44,570 nt of DNA, taken from assembly GCA_945897885.1 (NCBI GenBank), contig CAMDGU010000021.1:1-44570 (forward strand), read 5' to 3'. The notes under the pieces are model-generated. The model was not told where the DNA came from. It searched no databases and worked only from the letters and a program-made list of their open reading frames with translations. Below are positions 7,722 to 42,697 of this stretch, in pieces. Source of the stretch: Chitinophaga pinensis (lineage in GTDB: Bacteria > Bacteroidota > Bacteroidia > NS11-12g > UBA9320). A program made the translations under genes and the position numbers. The first letter of the stretch is position 1, and each line of letters starts with the position of its first letter.

Positions 7722-9860
7722 ATGGCAAGAGATTTACAATATACAAGAAATATAGGAATTGCTGCTCACATTGACGCAGGTAAAACTACAACTACCGAGC
7801 GTATTTTGTATTATGCTGGGGTAAACCATAAAATTGGAGAGGTACATGATGGCGCTGCTACAATGGATTGGATGGCTCAAGAGCAAGAAAGAGGAATTAC
7901 CATTACTTCTGCTGCAACCACAGTTGCTTGGAATTATCCAATGAAGGATGGTGCTAAAGTTCCTGAAACAAAAGAATATCACATAAACATTATTGATACA
8001 CCGGGTCACGTTGATTTTACTGTAGAAGTAAATCGTTCATTACGTGTACTTGATGGACTTGTATTTTTATTTAGTGCGGTTGATGGCGTTGAGCCTCAAT
8101 CTGAGACTAACTGGAGATTAGCTAACAATTACAATGTTGCTCGTATCGGTTTCGTAAATAAAATGGATCGTTCCGGTGCCGATTTTCTAATGGTTGTTAA
8201 GCAAGTAAGAGAAATGTTAGGAAGCAATGCTGTTCCACTTCAATTGCCAATTGGTGCTGAAGATGGTTTTACTGGTGTTGTCGATTTGATTAACTATCGT
8301 GGAATGATTTGGAATGAAACAGATAAAGGAATGACTTACAAAACCATTCCAATTCCAGATGATATGATAGAGGAGGCTAATGAGTGGAGAGAAAAATTAC
8401 TTGAAGCGGTTTCTGAATATGATGACCGTTTAATGGAAAAATTCTTTGAAGATCCAGCTTCTATTACTGAAAGAGAAATTTTGGATGCATTGCGTAAAGC
8501 ATGTTTGGATATGAAAATTGTTCCTATGGTTTGTGGTTCTTCTTTTAAAAATAAGGGAGTTCAAACAATGCTAGATTTAGTAATGGAACTTATGCCAAGC
8601 CCGCTTGATCGTAAGGAAATTACAGGAACAAATCCTGATACAGAAGAAGAAGTAACACGTAAGCCTGATTATAAAGAACCATTTGCTGCTTTAGCATTCA
8701 AAATTGCTACAGACCCTTTTGTTGGTCGTTTAGCCTTTATTAGAGCTTATTCTGGTAAATTAGATGCAGGTTCATATGTTCTAAATACACGCAGTGGTAA
8801 TAAAGAACGTATATCTCGTATTTTCCAAATGCACGCAAACAAGCAGAATCCTATTGAATTTTTAGGTGCCGGTGATATTGGAGCTGCAGTAGGTTTTAAA
8901 GATATTAAAACTGGAGATACATTGTGTGATGAAAAGCACCCAATCGTATTGGAAGCAATGGATTTCCCTAAGCCGGTTATTGGATTAGCAATTGAACCTA
9001 AAACCCAAGCTGATTCTGATAAATTAGGTGTTTCTTTAGGTAAATTATCAGAAGAAGATCCTACTTTCCAAGTAAAAACGGATGAAGAAACGGGTCAAAC
9101 CATTATAAGTGGTATGGGTGAGCTTCACTTAGAAATTATTGTGGACCGTTTACGCCGTGAATTCAAAGTAGAGATTAATCAAGGTGCCCCACAAGTAGCT
9201 TACAAAGAAGCTCTTAAAGGTACAGTAAAACACCGCGAAACTTTCAAAAAGCAAACGGGTGGACGTGGTAAATTTGCTGATATTCAATTTGAAATGTCAC
9301 CAGTTGATGAGGATTTCAAAGGTGAAGGATTACAATTTGTTAATCAAATTGTGGGTGGTTCTATTCCCCGTGAATTTATACCTTCAGTTGAAAAAGGATT
9401 TAAGGAATCAATGAAGAACGGTGTTCTAGCTGGTTATCCACTAGAAACTATGAAAATTCGTTTATTTGATGGTTCTTTTCACGCAGTGGATTCGGATTCA
9501 ATATCTTTTGAATTAGCTGCCAAGCAAGGATATAGAGATGCTGCCAAGCATGCGCAACCTATAATTCTTGAACCAATTATGAAGATTGAAATTGTTACAC
9601 CAGCAGATTATATGGGTGACGTTCAAGGCGATCTTAACCGAAGAAGAGGATTAATTGAAGGATTGGAAGAAAGAGCAGGTTCTCAAGTTATCAAAGGAAA
9701 AGTTCCATTGTCTGAAATGTTTGGATATGTAACGACCTTGAGAACGATAACTTCAGGACGTGCTACATCATCCATGGAATTTTCACATTACAATGAAGTT
9801 CCAAGAAATATGGCTGAAGAAATAATTGAGAAAGTAAAAGGAGTTAAAGCTAACGCATAA
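7722..9860 (+). CDS. fusA: Elongation factor G
   Basis: GTPase that drives translocation on the ribosome. 712 residues. G1 AHIDAGKT (15-22), G3 DTPGH (92-96) and G4 NKMD (146-149) are intact, and domains II-V follow without interruption. The segment between switch I and DTPGH carries a short extra loop (about 73-86, rich in Lys/Glu/Pro). In many bacteria tuf follows; here rpsJ follows after four bases, as is common in Bacteroidota. Confidence 0.98.
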
Positions 9861-35392: not shown

Positions 35393-36183
35393 TTATTGAC
35401 CTAGGAGTTTATAGAGTTCAGCAAGATTGGGTGATAAAATAATTTCGGTTCTGCGATTATGAGCTCTTGATTCAGCAGTAGAATTGGAAGCAATAGGATG
35501 AAATTCGCTTTTTCCTGCTGCTTTAATCCGTGTTGGGTCAAAACCGTTTTCTTTGGTTAATATTCGATTATTGATAATGCCCTTGCTGCACTGAGCGACC
35601 AATTGTCCTCAAACTTTGCAGTTTTGATGGGAATGCTATCGGTATGGCCTTCTATCATTACGTTTATATCGGTTGTACTGTTAAGCACATTCGTTAGTTT
35701 AGTTAAAGCTTCTTTTCCTTTTGGGTCAACCATTGCACTGCCTGATTTAAAAAGCAGTTTCTCTTCTAACGACACATATACACTGCCGTCTTTAATATAA
35801 ATACATAGTTCAGTGGCATCAAAACTTACCAGGGCATCAGCTACACTTCGTTTTAGTTTATTAACCACTTCTTTTTGATTCTCAATAAGGTCTTGTAAAT
35901 TTTTTAAACGTTTGGCTTGCTCCGCAATAGTTAGTTTTGATTTTGACGACACTTTCATGAGTTCATTTTGAAGGGCAGTATTGTCATTTTTCAAGGCTTC
36001 TATATCACCTTCCAGTTTTTGTACTTGGATAAAACATTCACTTAAATTGGACTGACAATTAAAACTGTCATTTTGAAGTTGGCCTATTTTATCCTCGGCT
36101 ATTCTGTAATTCTTTTTTGAAACACAAGAAGTAATGGCAATACTTAAAATTAATAGGAAGAATAATGAGGATTTGATTTTCAT
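35393..36183 (-). pseudogene. OmpA-family peptidoglycan-binding lipoprotein, frameshifted
   Basis: Start at 36183 with lipobox IAITSC, a coiled coil (about 25-115) and an OmpA/MotB domain from about 135 (EKLLFKSGSAMVDPKGKEAL, IEGHTDSIPI, NWSLSAARALSII). The frame then slips near 35566-35570 and ends at 35557. The remainder of the domain continues in another frame to 35393 (RILTKENGFDPTRIKAAGKS, AHNRRTEIILSP). One missing base restores SII-RILTKE, as in intact homologues. The peptidoglycan-binding arginines (NRRTE) are on the lost side, so the encoded product is 208 residues and probably inactive in wall binding. Mutation and base error are both possible. Confidence 0.85.
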
Positions 36184-36359: not shown

Positions 36360-37040
36360 TTATTCTATTCCCAATAGTTCTACTTCAAAAATTAGTAGAC
36401 TATTGCCGGGTATACCTTGATTACCTTGTGGGCCATAAGCCAAATCAGACGGGATATACAATTCCCATTTAGAACCTACGGTCATTAGTTGAAGGGCTTC
36501 TACCCATCCCGGAATAACCTGAGTAACACCAAACACAGCCGGTTCACCACGTTCTACTGAGCTATCAAACACTTTACCATCCAATAATTTTCCGGTGTAG
36601 TGCACTTTTACTCGTTGGTCGCTGGTTGGTTTTGAACCTGTTCCTGCTTTTAAAATTTTGTATTGCAAGCCCGAGGCAGTTGTAACAACTCCGGGAGCCG
36701 TTTTATTTTTTTCTAAAAACGCTGAATTTATTTTATTGTTTTCAGCCGCTTTTTTGTTCATCTCCACCATGGCTGCAGCTTGCAATACGGCATTCGATTG
36801 CATTTTATCCATCAATAATGAATCGCCTTTCATGGCACGTTCCATGGCGGCACTCATTATTTTATAGTTTATTTCAGAAAAACCACCACCTTTTAAATCG
36901 GTACCAATTAATGACCCCAAAGCATAGCTTATAGAGTCAATATTGGTTTTAAGTTTGGTTTTGTCAGGTGAGCCTTTTTGAGAGAAAGATGCCATTGAAA
37001 AAGCAACTAAAGCAATCAGCAATGTGAATTTTGTTTTCAA
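36360..37040 (-). CDS. FKBP-type peptidyl-prolyl isomerase, periplasmic
   Basis: 226 residues: signal peptide (about 1-20, ending ASFSQ), an N-terminal dimerisation helix domain (about 30-110; [19 protein letters not shown]) and the FKBP catalytic domain (about 125-226; [42 protein letters not shown]). No lipobox cysteine, so it is likely soluble in the periplasm. It helps fold exported proteins. It follows a close paralogue by 32 bases; a terminator ends the unit. Confidence 0.93.
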
Positions 37041-37072: not shown

Positions 37073-37807
37073 TTATTTAACCGCAGGAGCCGGAGCAGCT
37101 GCATCGCCTTTTTCTATACCCAAAAGTTCTACTTCAAAAATTAAAGCACTTCCACCCGGGATAGCTTGATTGCCTTGAGCACCATAACCTAAAGCTGGAG
37201 GAATGTATAATTCCCATTTAGAACCAACAGGCATTAATTTAATACCTTCTGTCCAACCCGGTATTACTTCATTTACACCAAATACGGCCGGTTCACCACG
37301 TTCTACCGAGCTATCAAATACTTTGCCATCCAATAATTTACCGGTGTAGTGTACTTTTACTTTTTGTCCGTCTACAGGTTTTTCACCGGTTCCGGCTTTA
37401 ATAATTTTGTATTGCAAGCCGCTGGCAGTGGTTACTACACCTGCAGCAGCCTTGTTTTTAGCCATAAAATCAGTGGCTGCTTTTTCGTTCTTTCCTGATT
37501 TTTCTTTCATTTGCTCCATTGCAAATGCTTGAAGAACTGAACTGGCTTTCATTTTATCCATCAATAATGAATCGCCGTTTAAAGCACGTTGCATAGCAGC
37601 GTTCATTACATCATAATTAAATTCTTCAAATCCACCACTTTTTAAGTCTTCTCCAATCAATGAACCTAAAGCATAACTAAGACTGTCAACTTTTGATTCA
37701 AGTTTTGGATTTTCAGGTGATTTGGAACTTGAAGCTCCTTTTTTACATGATACTGCACCAAAAAGGGCTACAATCATTCCAAGCGTTACTAATTTCGATT
37801 TAATCAT
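37073..37807 (-). CDS. FKBP-type peptidyl-prolyl isomerase, lipoprotein
   Basis: 244 residues. The signal peptide ends in a lipobox with Cys21 (FGAVSCKKG). The same two-part layout as the neighbour, with [20 protein letters not shown] and the FKBP domain [20 protein letters not shown], plus a short Ala/Pro tail (GDAAAPAPAVK). Very similar to the adjacent gene, so they look like a tandem duplication in which one copy is lipid-anchored and the other soluble. It starts 38 bases after the ABC-F gene and may be read from the same transcript. Confidence 0.93.
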   Translation of the reverse strand: MIKSKLVTLGMIVALFGAVSCKKGASSSKSPENPKLESKVDSLSYALGSLIGEDLKSGGFEEFNYDVMNAAMQRALNGDSLLMDKMKASSVLQAFAMEQMKEKSGKNEKAATDFMAKNKAAAGVVTTASGLQYKIIKAGTGEKPVDGQKVKVHYTGKLLDGKVFDSSVERGEPAVFGVNEVIPGWTEGIKLMPVGSKWELYIPPALGYGAQGNQAIPGGSALIFEVELLGIEKGDAAAPAPAVK

Positions 37808-37845: not shown

Positions 37846-39462
37846 TTAAACGGCTAAAGAGGAATTATAAAGTTCTTCTTTGCGCTGGGTTACTTCTTTG
37901 TTGTCTAAATAATCATCGTATTCGCAAACTTTGTCAATCATTCCATTAGGCGTAATTTCAATAACGCGAGTGGCTATGGTTTGAACAATGGTATGGTCGC
38001 GGCTGGTAAACATTAAAGTACCTTCGTAATTTTTTAAACCGTTATTTAAAGCGGTAATGGATTCCAAATCCAAGTGGTTGGTAGGTTCATCCAATATCAT
38101 AAGGTTTGGATTTTGAAGCATTAATTTGGAAAGCATGCATCTCACTTTTTCACCACCCGAAAGAACTTTACAGGATTTTAAACTCTCTTCTCCTGAAAAA
38201 AGCATTCTTCCCAAAAAGCCACGAATAAAGGTTTCATCCTTTTCTACCGAATATTGGCGCAACCAATCAATAAGGTTTAAGTCTGATTCAAAATAATGGT
38301 CTTTATCGTTTGGTAAATAACCGTTAACAATAGTTACTCCAAAATCAAATGTGCCTGACTCAGGTTTTATTTCTCCGGTAATTACTCTGAAAAAATTGGT
38401 AATTGCGATACTTTCACGTGATAGAAAAACCACCTTTTCGTTTTTATAAAGACTAAAGTTTAAATCCTTAAAATATGGCATTAAGGTTAGCCCTTTTACG
38501 TTAAGTATTTGATCGCCGGCTTCACGTTCTTGTTTAAAGAAGATGCCCGGATATTTTCTGCTTGAAGGGTCAATATCGTCCACATTCAGTTTTTCAAGCA
38601 TTTTTTTACGACTGGTAGCCTGTTTTGATTTTTTAACGTTGGCACTAAATCGGTCAATAAATTCTTGAAGTTCTTTTCGCTTTTCTTCGTTCTTTTTATT
38701 TTGGTCTGATTGCTGACGCGAGGCTAACTGGCTGGCTTCATACCAGAACGTGTAGCTACCGCCATATATTTTAATCTTTCTAAAATCAATATCACAAATA
38801 TGTGTACATACCGAATCTAAAAAGTGCCTATCGTGAGATACCACAATTACCACGTTTTTATAATCGGCCAAAAAATTCTCTAACCACCCTACAGTTTCAA
38901 TATCCAAGTCATTGGTAGGCTCATCCAAAATTAAAATATCAGGATTGCCAAAAATAGCTTGGGCTAAAAGAACCCTTACTTTTTGATTGTTGCTTAAATC
39001 ACCCATCCGAGTGTAGTGGAAATCTTCACTAACGCCCAGTGAGCCTAATAATTCACCTGCTTCACTTTCGGCATTCCAACCGTTCATGTCAGCAAATTTT
39101 TCTTCTAAATGACTGGCTTTAATTCCATCTTCGTCCGTAAAATCCTCCTTAGCATAAATCGCATCTTTTTCTTTCATTATACTGTACAATTCTTTGTGGC
39201 CCATTATCACAGTTTCAAGCACATTAAATTCATCAAATTCAAAGTGATCTTGTTTTAATACGGCCATCCTTTTACCCGGAGTAACAGATACATTACCGGA
39301 GGTAGGTTCTATTTCGTTGGAAAGGATTTTTAAGAATGTTGATTTTCCGGCACCATTGGCACCTATTACACCATAACAGTTTCCTTCAGTAAATTTAAGA
39401 TTTACCTCATCAAACAACACCCTTTTGCCAAACCGTAAAGATAAATTGGAAACTACTAACAT
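37846..39462 (-). CDS. ABC-F family ATPase, YbiT-like, with degenerate second ATP site
   Basis: 538-residue soluble twin-ATPase protein; ABC-F members act on ribosomes. NBD1 has Walker A GANGAGKST (34-42), Walker B ILILDEPTND (176-185) and SHDRHF (209-214), but its signature is LSNNQ (156-160) instead of LSGGQ. The linker (about 250-300) has the RFSANVKKSKQATSRKKM pattern of YbiT. In NBD2 the signature LSGGEK (434-439) and Walker B LMILDEPTNHLD (454-465) are intact, yet Walker A is replaced by FLSRESIAITNF (346-357; no Lys) and the switch His is Arg488 (TSRD). All three lost motifs belong to the same composite site. Its own -7 element lies at 39483-39490. Confidence 0.92.
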   Translation of the reverse strand: MLVVSNLSLRFGKRVLFDEVNLKFTEGNCYGVIGANGAGKSTFLKILSNEIEPTSGNVSVTPGKRMAVLKQDHFEFDEFNVLETVIMGHKELYSIMKEKDAIYAKEDFTDEDGIKASHLEEKFADMNGWNAESEAGELLGSLGVSEDFHYTRMGDLSNNQKVRVLLAQAIFGNPDILILDEPTNDLDIETVGWLENFLADYKNVVIVVSHDRHFLDSVCTHICDIDFRKIKIYGGSYTFWYEASQLASRQQSDQNKKNEEKRKELQEFIDRFSANVKKSKQATSRKKMLEKLNVDDIDPSSRKYPGIFFKQEREAGDQILNVKGLTLMPYFKDLNFSLYKNEKVVFLSRESIAITNFFRVITGEIKPESGTFDFGVTIVNGYLPNDKDHYFESDLNLIDWLRQYSVEKDETFIRGFLGRMLFSGEESLKSCKVLSGGEKVRCMLSKLMLQNPNLMILDEPTNHLDLESITALNNGLKNYEGTLMFTSRDHTIVQTIATRVIEITPNGMIDKVCEYDDYLDNKEVTQRKEELYNSSLAV

Positions 39463-39482: not shown

Positions 39483-39490
39483 CAAAAATA
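39483..39490 (-). promoter_or_regulatory. Probable -7 element of the ABC-F gene
   Basis: The minus strand reads TATTTTTG followed by CAC, exact for TAnnTTTG, 20 bases before the ATG at 39462. A TTTTTG lies 24 bases upstream, somewhat beyond the ideal spacing. Confidence 0.5.
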
Positions 39491-39542: not shown

Positions 39543-40841
39543 TTAGCTTTGTGATAATGCTATTTTATAGGTTTCGAGGCATTTAGTTCTGGCTTGCTCG
39601 TGATTTACTATGGGTTTTGGGTAAGTTGGTTTTTCAAATTCGGGAACCCAGGTTTTAATGTAACTATTTTTAGGGTCAAATCGGGCAGTTTGTAAATAGG
39701 GATTAAAAATTCTGAAATACGGAGCCGCATCTACACCGCATCCTGCCGCCCATTGCCAACCCCCGTTATTGCTGGCCAATTCAAAATCCAATAACTTTTC
39801 GGCAAAGTAGGCTTCACCCCATCGCCAGTCAATTAATAAGTGTTTGGTTAAAAAACTGGCTACTATCATTCTTACCCGGTTATGCATAAATCCTGTAGAA
39901 TTAAGTTGTCTCATACCCGCATCCACTATAGGGTAGCCGGTTTGCCCATTGCACCATTTCTCAAAATAGTTGCGGTTATTATCCCATTCAATTCTATCAT
40001 ACTGTGGCTTAAAGGCTGACGAAACCACATGCGGATAATGGTATAAAATGCTCATATAAAATTCTCTCCAAATTAGTTCATTGAGCCATTTTTCACTTAT
40101 TTGTAAGGCCTTTGCTGCTTTTTGGCGAATACTTATTGTACCAAATCTGAAATGTAAACTAAGGCGACTGGTTCCTTCCACTGAAGGGATATCGCGGTTG
40201 GTTTCATAGTTTTTTATTATACTTTGTCTTGTTTCTTTTTCAGGAAACGGTATTAATGATTTCTTAAACCCTAATTCTTCTAATGCAATATTGGCAAGGG
40301 GCTTTGAGCTATAAAATTTTTTAAAGTACAGTTCGGTAGGGTAAGGCTTTAAATAAAAGTCGTTAAGTTTGGCCTTCCATTTTTTTGAGTATGGAGTAAA
40401 AACGGTATAAGGCGTTCCGTCGTCCTTTGAAACTTCATCTTTTTCAAAAATTACTTGATCTTTGAACGTCTGAAAATTAATGGAGTTGGATGAGAGCATC
40501 TTATTTATTTCATTGTCGCGGCTTATGGCGTAGGGTTCATAATCATGATTGGTAAATACTTCCTTTATCTCATATTCGCTGATTACCTCTTTCCAAATGG
40601 CCAAAGGTTCGCCGTACTTAATCAATAAACTTGAACCTAATACTTCCAATTCCGTTTTTAACTGTTCAATTTCTTGATGGATAAACGACACCCGGGCATC
40701 AGTTTTATCTGTTAATTTGGATAGGATGGAAGTGTCAAAAATAAATAGACATAAAACGGGTGTACCGCTTTTTAATGCGTGATAAAGGGCTGCATTATCT
40801 TGAAGACGAAAGTCGCGTCGAAACCAGTGAATGGATATCAT
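39543..40841 (-). CDS. phrB: Deoxyribodipyrimidine photolyase
   Basis: 432-residue flavoprotein that repairs UV-induced pyrimidine dimers with blue light. N-terminal alpha/beta domain for the antenna (MISIHWFRRDFRLQDNAAL), C-terminal FAD domain with LIWREFYMSILYHYP, FEKWCNGQTGYPIVDAGMRQ, MHNRVRMIVASFLTKHLLID and NGGWQWAAGCGVDAAPYFRI, the last carrying the flavin-binding and electron-transfer tryptophans. Best fit is a class I CPD photolyase; a (6-4) enzyme or cryptochrome is less likely. It overlaps the upstream gene by four bases, so both are translated from one mRNA next to a probable light-sensing regulator. Confidence 0.94.
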   Translation of the reverse strand: MISIHWFRRDFRLQDNAALYHALKSGTPVLCLFIFDTSILSKLTDKTDARVSFIHQEIEQLKTELEVLGSSLLIKYGEPLAIWKEVISEYEIKEVFTNHDYEPYAISRDNEINKMLSSNSINFQTFKDQVIFEKDEVSKDDGTPYTVFTPYSKKWKAKLNDFYLKPYPTELYFKKFYSSKPLANIALEELGFKKSLIPFPEKETRQSIIKNYETNRDIPSVEGTSRLSLHFRFGTISIRQKAAKALQISEKWLNELIWREFYMSILYHYPHVVSSAFKPQYDRIEWDNNRNYFEKWCNGQTGYPIVDAGMRQLNSTGFMHNRVRMIVASFLTKHLLIDWRWGEAYFAEKLLDFELASNNGGWQWAAGCGVDAAPYFRIFNPYLQTARFDPKNSYIKTWVPEFEKPTYPKPIVNHEQARTKCLETYKIALSQS

Positions 40842-41740
40842 TTAGCTAAATCTGAAATGGCTTTGTTTATATCGGTAAATTGAAATTTGAAACCTTCATT
40901 TTTTAGTTTAGATGGTGATACCTCAGCACTCTCAGTAAATATTTCGGCCTTTTGGCCAAAAAGTAGTTTTACCAAGAAGGAAGGAATAGCAGGAGGAAGA
41001 AAGCCTTGTCCATTTTTTCGGGAAATTATTTTAGTAACCTCGTTATTGGTATCGCTGGCAGATACAGCATTATAAATTCCCGATTTTACTTTGTCTTCAA
41101 GTATGGAAATAAAAATACTTACCAAATCATCTAAATGAATCCAGCAAACGGCTTGATTTCCCGAACCAATAGGGGCTGCAATTTTCCATTTTGCTAAATC
41201 TTTAATTTTTTTATAGAAGCCGCCATTATTTCCTAAAACTATTCCAATCCTTATGATTGATAATTTAGAATTAGGAGTTTCCATTGTCTTAGCTGCATTT
41301 TCCCAATCACGGCAAACCAAAGCCGCAAAATCATTTCCACATGGCGAATCCTCTGTTTTTATCGAATCATTTTTGATGCCATAAAACCCGATGGCCGAAG
41401 CAGAAATAATATGCTTCGGTTCATGTGGTAAACTTTTAACGATAGAGGATAAATATTCAGTGGAATTAATTCGGCTTTTTAAAATTAGTTCTTTGCCAGC
41501 CTCATCCCATTTTGTGTCTGAAATACTGGCACCTGACAGATTTATTACGCCAAAAAATTTGTCTTCAGGCAATAAATCGCATAATCTTAAGGATGGGTCC
41601 CAATGGTATGTTCCCTTAAGGTCATTTGCGACCGAAGTAGAAAGTATTAGCGTAGAAAACCCTTTTTCTTTTAGTTTTTGGCATAATGCCGTGCCAATTA
41701 ATCCCGTAGCACCTGTTATTAAAATGTTTTTTTTATTCAC
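40838..41740 (-). CDS. TIGR01777-family SDR protein (YfcH-like)
   Basis: 300-residue NAD(P)-binding Rossmann protein of the extended short-chain dehydrogenase type. GATGLIG (10-16) is the dinucleotide loop; DLLPEDKFFGVINLSGASIS, SRINSTEYLS, SASAIGFYG, RIGIVLGNNGGFYKKI and SPSKLKNEGFKFQF are typical of TIGR01777/YfcH. Catalytic role unknown. It overlaps phrB (ATGA) and is the first gene transcribed away from the CarH-like regulator, from which it is separated by 60 bases. In several Bacteroidota it seems to travel with photolyase genes, which hints at a light-linked function. Confidence 0.88.
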   Translation of the reverse strand: MNKKNILITGATGLIGTALCQKLKEKGFSTLILSTSVANDLKGTYHWDPSLRLCDLLPEDKFFGVINLSGASISDTKWDEAGKELILKSRINSTEYLSSIVKSLPHEPKHIISASAIGFYGIKNDSIKTEDSPCGNDFAALVCRDWENAAKTMETPNSKLSIIRIGIVLGNNGGFYKKIKDLAKWKIAAPIGSGNQAVCWIHLDDLVSIFISILEDKVKSGIYNAVSASDTNNEVTKIISRKNGQGFLPPAIPSFLVKLLFGQKAEIFTESAEVSPSKLKNEGFKFQFTDINKAISDLAK

Positions 41741-41767
41741 TGATTATAGTTTAAAACAATTTGTAAC

Positions 41768-41785
41768 CCCCTTTGTTTTATAAGG
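41768..41785. promoter_or_regulatory. Imperfect inverted repeat in the carH-SDR intergenic region
   Basis: CCCTT, eight bases, AAGGG, in the 60-base gap between two divergent start codons. It could be part of a MerR-type operator for the neighbouring regulator, but the arms are short and neither strand shows a clean TAnnTTTG here. Confidence 0.3.
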
Positions 41786-41800
41786 GAAACGCAATTTTTA

Positions 41801-42697
41801 ATGAGTACATATTACATCAAAGATCTCGAAAGTTTAACGGGTATTAAAGCACACACTATTCGTATTTGGGAGCAAAGATATAATTTAGTAACACCAAAAC
41901 GCACCGTCACAAACATCCGCTATTACGATGATGAGGATGTAAAGCTATTATTAAATATTGCGCTGCTCAATAAAAAAGGTTTAAAAATTTCTAAAATAGC
42001 TTGCCTTGCTGCTGATGAAATTCACAGTGAGGCCTTGGTTACTTGTAAACGACGAAATGAAAATGATGATTTAATAAATTCGTTTATACTAGCTACCTAT
42101 AAATTGGATGAAGGGGAGATAAATAAAATTATTGCCAATCAAATAATGAAAGAGGGTTTTGAGAACACCATGATAAAACTTGCTTTTCCTTATTTGCAGA
42201 GGCTTGGAGATTTGTGGGTTTCAAATGCTCTTAAACCGGCTTTGGAGCATTTTGCCACGAATATCATCAAAAAGAAAATTCAAATAGCAGCTGAGGGTGT
42301 AAAGGAATCTAGTAAGGAGCAAAAATTTCTATTGTTTCTTCCGTCGGGTGAATTTCATGAAATGGGATTGCTTTTTGCAAATTATATAATTAAAAAAGAA
42401 GGATTTAATGTTTTGTATTTGGGGCAAAATACTCCCATCGAAGATTTATCGGCTGTAATGGATAATTTTAAAGCTGATTATATACTTTCTGTTTTTACTG
42501 CTTCCAATCCAAGTGTGGAACCTATAAAATTTGTTAATGAAGTAGTTACCAACTGGCCTGAAGTTAAAATATTATTGGCTGGAATAAAATTAAGAACAGA
42601 TGGCGGTCAAAGTCTTAATTCTCCTAAATATAAAAACAAGGTAACATTGCTCAATGAGCCTGCTGAATTAAAACAATACCTTGATAAAATAGTTTAA
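41801..42697 (+). CDS. MerR-family regulator with B12-binding domain (CarH/LitR-like photoreceptor)
   Basis: 298 residues. N-terminal MerR helix-turn-helix (1-75; YYIKDLESLTGIKAHTIRIW, EQRYNLVTPKRT). Middle helical cap with Trp139 and, ten residues on, Glu149-His150, the W-x9-EH pattern of CarH that packs over adenosylcobalamin. B12 domain (about 173-298) with E184-F-H186-E-M-G189, the ExHxxG motif whose His ligates cobalt. Known CarH proteins repress in the dark as AdoCbl-bound tetramers and release DNA in light. Divergent from the SDR-phrB pair, so photolyase is the likely target. No carotenoid genes are in view. Confidence 0.88.
   Translation: MSTYYIKDLESLTGIKAHTIRIWEQRYNLVTPKRTVTNIRYYDDEDVKLLLNIALLNKKGLKISKIACLAADEIHSEALVTCKRRNENDDLINSFILATYKLDEGEINKIIANQIMKEGFENTMIKLAFPYLQRLGDLWVSNALKPALEHFATNIIKKKIQIAAEGVKESSKEQKFLLFLPSGEFHEMGLLFANYIIKKEGFNVLYLGQNTPIEDLSAVMDNFKADYILSVFTASNPSVEPIKFVNEVVTNWPEVKILLAGIKLRTDGGQSLNSPKYKNKVTLLNEPAELKQYLDKIV

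Follow-up and report, generated by a model that had tools for sequence, protein, structure and literature searches.

Introduction

The working model of the ABC-F family, as given in the accessible text of PMC11282234, has two ATPs bound between, and closing, the two NBDs, with consensus Walker motifs in each. For Mtb EttA, the available part of PMC8782954 reports motifs at both ATP sites. In the YbiT branch, B. subtilis YkpA is identified by name as the Bacillota ortholog of YbiT in the portions of PMC6723617 at hand (Murina 2019). B. subtilis cells without YkpA show mild stalling on poly-Lys and poly-Glu reporters, according to the accessible passages of PMC11381351 (Takada 2024), and the words Walker, degenerate, NBD2 and nucleotide binding are absent from the main text of that paper. 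An E. coli study on YbiT is cited as reference 53 in the available part of PMC12096078.

Degenerate ATP sites of ABC transporters are described in the accessible text of PMC7756269 as holding non-hydrolysed ATP, and the degenerate site of Pdr5 is there changed in all motifs (Lys to Cys, Glu to Asn, His to Tyr, and LNVEQ). Within the open-licence PMC literature, which sets the scope of our search (subscription papers and preprints lie beyond it), the texts as available yielded no description of a degenerate ATP site in YbiT/YkpA or in other ABC-F proteins. YbiT and the word "degenerate" came together in one review, PMC6389857, whose available text applies the word to ABC transporters and not to YbiT or YkpA. 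Here we analyse an ABC-F gene in a stretch of DNA of 44,570 nucleotides (the window), in which a sequence-only reading had noted the loss of one ATP site.

Results

The gene is an intact frame with an ATG start and zero internal stops. Its product matched PF00005 in two stretches (Pfam), that is, as two tandem ABC NBDs in one chain, and NBD2 scored alone reached 42.9 bits against a cut-off of 25. The best NCBIfam family was the YbiT equivalog NF011646 with 635.4 bits, the next family reaching 322.3 bits. Since the curated cut-off of NF011646 is 762, we refer to the window protein as YbiT/YkpA-type and not as the equivalog itself. Its closest solved sequence is E. coli YbiT (phmmer, 535.7 bits), and the 44 YbiT rows, E. 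coli YbiT among them, branch apart from two paralogs of the window's genome with an SH-aLRT of 100, in a tree whose outgroup is 2 rows, both long branches. The accessible text of PMC11282234 describes ABC-F proteins as having consensus Walker A and B motifs in each NBD, and this is not what we found: Walker A2 is absent here and in 195 of 203 YbiT-type proteins. Because this absence is the variant trait itself, the window protein was filed as an ABC-F variant and not as a standard two-site member.

The motif consensuses used were GxxGxGK[ST] for Walker A and LSGG for the signature; D-loops act in trans, and D-loop2 of NBD2 serves site I. As listed in Table 1, one site is intact and the other is degenerate in both NBDs, as in ABC proteins with one degenerate composite site. 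The sequence-only reading had named Walker A2, signature 1 and the NBD2 switch position as degenerate, and all three were present as claimed at their motif positions in the query. It had also taken site I to be intact, and Walker A1, Q71, D180/E181, H210 and signature 2 are indeed in place. Its further statement that every motif of site II is lost held only in part: D458/E459 of Walker B2 and the D-loop NHLD are kept, and two more losses, N385 and the A-loop deletion, had been missed.

Table 1. Features of the YbiT/YkpA-type ABC-F gene and its protein, with positions in the window
Feature	Residues	Coordinates	Strand	Remarks
ABC-F gene, YbiT/YkpA type		37846..39462	(-)	538 aa; coordinates include stop codon
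Walker A1 GANGAGKST	34-42	39337..39363	(-)	site I; intact; canonical in 203/203 homologues
Q-loop Gln71 of NBD1	71	39250..39252	(-)	site I; intact; Q in 195/195
Signature 1 LSNNQ	156-160	38983..38997	(-)	acts in site II; degenerate
Walker B1 and D-loop1 ILILDEPTNDLD	176-187	38902..38937	(-)	D180/E181 serve site I; Glu1 is E in 195/195
Switch His210 of NBD1	210	38833..38835	(-)	site I; intact; H in 195/195
ABC_tran_Xtn linker (P-site tRNA interaction)	223-304	38551..38796	(-)	PF12848 between the NBDs; 73.3 bits, cut-off 25.9
NBD2 A-loop region LTLMPYF	325-331	38470..38490	(-)	site II; shortened by 4 residues against E. coli YbiT; position of the adenine-stacking aromatic lost
Former Walker A2 SRESIAIT	348-355	38398..38421	(-)	site II; no Gly, no Lys
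NBD2 Q-loop position, Asn385	385	38308..38310	(-)	site II; Asn replaces Gln
Signature 2 LSGGE	434-438	38149..38163	(-)	acts in site I; intact; LSGGE in 194/195, other LSGGX
Walker B2 and D-loop2 LMILDEPTNHLD	454-465	38068..38103	(-)	D458/E459 (site II) kept; D-loop NHLD intact, H463 invariant
NBD2 switch position, Arg488	488	37999..38001	(-)	site II; Arg replaces His

In order to follow the trait through relatives, 218 loci were reduced to 203 full-length non-redundant YbiT-type proteins by dropping 11 duplicates and 4 fragments; the set is biased to Bacteroidota and the near relatives of the query, and its named loci are the best 80 of 364. The fragments were L058, L171, L224 Mycoplasmopsis and L225 Limosilactobacillus, so that Mycoplasmatota stand outside the counts; L058 and L171 also show a degenerate Walker A2. 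From the plasmid collection, 22 of 52 matching records were taken into the sample. The kinship sample comprised 58 genomes from the genus, family and order of the window, with the window's genome counted among them; 51 had a YbiT-level match, and in all 50 that were read (G023 was left out) Walker A2 was lost. YbiT-level matches were present in 137 of 198 genomes of a class-wide sample and in 57 of 198 of a phylum-wide one, both being read in part and with one selection that favoured low identities. Outside the window's class, all 10 phylum-wide matches were read, 8 with a degenerate and 2 with an intact Walker A2. Sixteen genomes that lacked a YbiT-level match were searched at a looser limit, at which 14 yielded nothing but hits with 28-32% identity and the other two yielded none, which is consistent with absence of the gene in these 16. 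Full-length YbiT-type matches also lie in two phage-named records, OR846603.1 (35626-37248, 56% identity) and MT835846.1 (8448-10064, 58% identity), for which host DNA is a possible cause.

Walker A2 was degenerate in 195 of the 203 proteins and canonical in 8. These eight are five Gammaproteobacteria (E. coli, Aeromonas, Halomonas, Pseudoalteromonas and Vibrio), one Chlamydiota (Neochlamydia) and two genomes, G312 and G362, of one distant family of the window's phylum. The sequence-only reading had stated that homologues with GxxGxGKS retained in NBD2 all the way to the window's lineage would speak against it; the eight are not of this kind. Its proposal of a trait spread across Bacteroidota was correct in being clade-wide and too narrow in its limits, as all 13 full-length rows from Bacillota (10) and Fusobacteriota (3) share the loss. 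Examples of the degenerate motif are GPNGLAKT in Paenibacillus, GRNELAVT in Bacillus velezensis, SENEIAKT in Haliovirga, SRNALATT in Lactobacillus and GTNEIAKT in Clostridium mobile; pieces of P-loop 2 (Lys-Thr) are retained by some members of Bacillota, Fusobacteriota and family f72. The control set comprised 22 ABC-F-type proteins outside YbiT that match the window protein at about 30% identity: two paralogs encoded in the window's genome and 20 proteins of relatives. Both paralogs were examined for the PF12848 linker; a third locus of that genome (L229) had no PF12848 match and was not counted. Walker A2 was canonical in 22/22 controls and both P-loops in 17/22, the other five having Ala for the first Gly of Walker A1.

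We then compared how well the two sites are conserved among the 195 proteins whose Walker A2 is non-canonical. At site I, the entropy averaged 0.072 bits over 22 positions, the A-loop included, and 18 positions were fully invariant, compared with a mean of 1.35 bits and 2 invariant positions over 21 positions of site II, where the A-loop was not scorable because it is deleted in some rows. Signature 2 and D-loop2, which are located in NBD2, are invariant or nearly so, and signature 1 and the D-loop1 residue D185, which are located in NBD1 and serve site II, are variable. The gap in entropy indicates an asymmetry beyond chance, and the loss tracks the composite site across both NBDs, not one domain, in agreement with the assignment to site II made from the sequence at the outset.

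The remnants of site II differ in how far they have gone. In P-loop 2 the third Gly is G in 1 and the Lys is K in 11 of the 195, and the Q-loop Gln remains in 3. The A-loop aromatic is present in 8/8 proteins with an intact Walker A2 and in 7/195 without; the A-loop itself is deleted in 28 of the 195 rows, all of the window's family or named loci near it. The Walker B2 Asp is kept in 193. At the Glu2 position we counted E 153, S 12, Q 11, D 10, T 5, G 2 and N 2, and at the His2 position H 175, R 13 (7 of them from the window's genus), K 3, Y 2, F 1 and S 1. Glu2 was lost alone in 42 proteins and His2 alone in 20; in no protein were both lost. Among relatives in the kinship sample, the second switch position is Arg in 7/7 genomes of the window's genus and His in the 42 others that have the segment.

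Trees were built with the motif columns left out, from 46 rows with the outgroup and from 44 rows without it. The degenerate rows form one side of a branch in both (SH-aLRT 99 for 46 rows; ultrafast bootstrap 100 and SH-aLRT 99 for 44 rows). The AU test keeps (p-AU 0.171) an alternative tree in which Gammaproteobacteria group with the rows of Bacillota and Fusobacteriota and whose log-likelihood is lower by 25.7, and this tree would need two losses of Walker A2; a single origin of the loss is favoured. On a FastTree of 203 rows, Walker A2 needed 1 change, compared with 5 for Lys, 7 for Gly1, 9 for Glu2 and 7 for His2, and none for Glu1 or His1; the A-loop2 deletion needed one, in the 28 rows around the window's family. 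Loss of Walker A2 seems to be an old and stable trait of the sampled Bacteroidota, Bacillota and Fusobacteriota relatives.

Signature 1 differs from LSGG in every one of the 8 proteins that keep Walker A2 (VAPGW, VSPGW, LPTDL, IPLDH), and its change thus predates the Walker A2 loss or is independent of it; two rows with a degenerate Walker A2, Peptoclostridium and Cytobacillus, have LSGGE or LTGGE as signature 1. The losses are staggered, since signature 1 was already changed in the intact set and Arg488 is confined to the window's genus. The coordinated loss of exactly three motifs that had been proposed is contradicted by this order: Walker A2 was lost at the base of a large clade, and within the sampled order the change of His2 to Arg occurs only in 7 genomes of one genus. 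The pattern reads as a stepwise degeneration of site II under strict retention of site I. In the tree with the outgroup, whose root lies on long branches, rows of the window's phylum nest within Bacillota rows, and this nesting suggests that the YbiT-type gene moved between phyla. The YbiT-type protein of Clostridium mobile (L155, NZ_JAHLQF010000002.1) is 65% identical to the window protein.

Selection was assessed on the genes of seven genus members. Their synonymous sites are saturated (median pS 0.775), so that the pN/pS medians, 0.078 overall, 0.065 for NBD1, 0.057 for the linker and 0.11 for NBD2, are rough, as are the values of 0.236 for the former P-loop with its flanks and 0.106 for Walker A1 with its flanks. 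The ratio of NBD2 to NBD1 divergence was 1.37 in degenerate proteins (399 random pairs), 1.44 in intact ones (28 pairs) and 1.14 in Bacillota and Fusobacteriota (78 pairs). The low pN/pS and the ordinary divergence ratio indicate that NBD2 is maintained and site II is not. Purifying selection acts on the gene, with no decay of NBD2 as a whole. A pseudogene or a decaying gene is disfavoured by the pN/pS values, rough as they are, and by the similar divergence ratios; the stable one-site arrangement that had been proposed in place of random decay is supported, and the genus-wide median speaks against a pseudogene copy, which the sequence-only reading had named as a counter-case.

An AlphaFold2 model from 37 sequences had a mean pLDDT of 88.9 and a pTM of 0.83; it is ligand-free and says nothing on occupancy. 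Compared with E. coli EQ2-YbiT on the ribosome, it gave Z 31.9 and rmsd 7.2 over 485 residues (9nlf) and Z 31.0 and rmsd 5.1 over 487 residues (9njf), and compared with ATP-bound human ABCF1 (5zxd) Z 31.7 and rmsd 3.3 over 433 residues. Against ADP-bound or nucleotide-free EttA the rmsd was above 26. The whole-chain fit of Foldseek to 9njf was looser (TM 0.72, rmsd 12.2). With a lower rmsd to ATP-bound or ribosome-bound forms than to ADP-bound or nucleotide-free EttA, the predicted ABC-F fold has an arrangement nearer the closed form. In the window model, the helix of NBD2 starts from the Gly4 position and that of NBD1 from Lys40. We considered a refolding of the former P-loop into a longer helix and rejected it, as in a model of the Clostridium mobile protein, likewise ligand-free, both helices start from the Gly4 position, also after the canonical Walker A1.

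Several observations concern the neighbourhood of the gene. Directly downstream lie two tandem FKBP-type peptidyl-prolyl isomerases with N-terminal FKBP_N (36360-37040 and 37073-37807, minus strand), and an OmpA-like ORF (35557-36183, minus strand) covers 63 of the 98 OmpA domain positions before it stops and looks truncated or frameshifted. Upstream, a DNA photolyase, an NAD-dependent epimerase with DUF1731 and a divergent MerR/B12-binding regulator stand together at 39543-42697, a group that we take to resemble a light-response cluster. The sequence TATTTTTG at 39483-39490 (minus strand), which lies 21 to 28 bases upstream of the ABC-F start codon, resembles the -7 promoter element of Bacteroidota. 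From 6865 on there is a long series of ORFs on the plus strand with the look of a ribosomal protein operon; the gene checked in it was that of elongation factor G (7722-9860, plus strand).

Discussion

The window protein is probably a translation factor of the ABC-F family, of YbiT/YkpA descent, that works with a single functional composite ATP site, and one-site catalysis is its most likely mechanism. ATP at site I, made up of Walker A1, Walker B1, Q-loop1 and His1 of NBD1 together with the signature and D-loop of NBD2, would close the NBDs. The closed protein would occupy the E site of the ribosome, from which its linker would extend to the peptidyl-tRNA, and hydrolysis at site I, via E181 and H210, would then open and release it. 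NBD2 would be retained as the partner that gives signature 2 and D-loop2 in trans, and as a scaffold for ribosome binding, and site II would no longer hydrolyse. We infer the action at the E site by homology to solved ABC-F proteins and from the genetics of B. subtilis YkpA; the window protein probably helps stalled ribosomes. As it has no P-loop, no Lys, no A-loop and no Q-loop Gln, site II is probably empty of nucleotide in the window's family. Since P-loop pieces are kept elsewhere, with the Lys in 11/195, some members of Bacillota, Fusobacteriota and family f72 may still bind ATP there. A counterpoint to the one-site reading is that Glu2 and His2 are kept in 153 and 175 of the 195 proteins, more than an inert site would need. 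The faster evolution around the former P-loop, the loose Foldseek fit to 9njf and the outcome of the AU test also count on that side.

Three other explanations have to be weighed against one-site catalysis. Site II may have lost hydrolysis alone and bind nucleotide in a non-canonical way, keeping it as glue, like Pdr5, which in the available text of PMC7756269 is changed in every motif of a degenerate site of the kind that holds non-hydrolysed ATP. The Walker B2 Asp in 193/195, His2 in 175/195 and the P-loop Lys-Thr of some Bacillota, Fusobacteriota and f72 members would fit such a site. However, the single Walker A change of Pdr5 is Lys to Cys (accessible text of PMC7756269), whereas the window protein has three P-loop Gly and the Lys replaced, the A-loop deleted and Asn in the Q-loop, and we regard a nucleotide held at site II as rather unlikely here. 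We are more doubtful still about a new role of NBD2, in which the former P-loop would have become a motif, [SGA]-[KR]-[ND]-x-x-A-x-[TSN], with affinity for RNA, a ribosomal protein or some other ligand, or one that fills site II so that one ATP suffices for closure. The segment is constrained, with S348 in 163/195, a basic residue at 349 in 165/195, N/D at 350 in 155/195, A353 in 162/195 and T355 in 149/195; yet N/D, A and T are possibly vestiges of the P-loop or packing residues, the entropy of the segment is ordinary to high for NBD2 (percentiles 37 to 91), and no partner is known.

Relaxed selection, by which NBD2 or the whole gene would be decaying and the motif losses would be drift, is very improbable. 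The nine changes of Glu2 and seven of His2 on the 203-row tree could be read in its favour, as could the pN/pS of 0.236 around the former P-loop, but frames are open in 203 full-length proteins, NBD2 as a whole has a pN/pS of 0.11 and evolves no faster relative to NBD1, and signature 2 and D-loop2 are nearly invariant.

We put forward, as a tentative proposal to which we would give slightly less than even weight, that translation factors working with a single ATP form an old lineage, made up of the YkpA-type ABC-F proteins found in Bacteroidota, Bacillota and Fusobacteriota. In these, one nucleotide at site I would suffice for NBD closure on the ribosome, site II being either empty or self-filled. 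Should this be true, and should the two-site YbiT of E. coli act on the same charged-peptide stalls, as the literature suggests, nature would have done the experiment which shows the second ATP to be dispensable for E-site rescue. If B. subtilis YkpA resembles the protein of its relative B. velezensis, YbiT of both kinds, with one site and with two, may fulfil the same task. Were a widespread housekeeping lineage to lack a usable second site, it would show that a single site can drive binding and release, and would tell which of the two matters. ABC-F studies use double Glu-to-Gln (EQ2) mutants; in YkpA-type proteins the second Glu would be idle, which would change how EQ2 is interpreted.

The comparison with known systems can be drawn as follows. 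E. coli YbiT (9njf, 9nlf and others) is 45.7% identical to the window protein (tblastn), has an equal domain order and linker, and its own signature 1, VAPGW, is likewise non-LSGG. In contrast to the window protein, it has a canonical Walker A2 (GTNGVGKST), together with the Gln of the NBD2 Q-loop, the A-loop Phe and the switch His. B. subtilis YkpA is also a YbiT-type ABC-F protein; the B. velezensis sequence, which stands in for it here (L206, 60% identity to the window protein), likewise lacks a canonical Walker A2 but has His2 and no A-loop deletion. EttA, Uup, YheS and other ABC-F proteins share the tandem NBDs, the linker and the fold of the model, and differ in Walker A2, which is canonical in all 22 non-YbiT ABC-F-type proteins from the same or related genomes. 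The ABC exporters with a degenerate site (Pdr5, TAP, CFTR, MRP1) resemble the window protein in that one composite site is degenerate and the other is kept; unlike it, they are membrane transporters.
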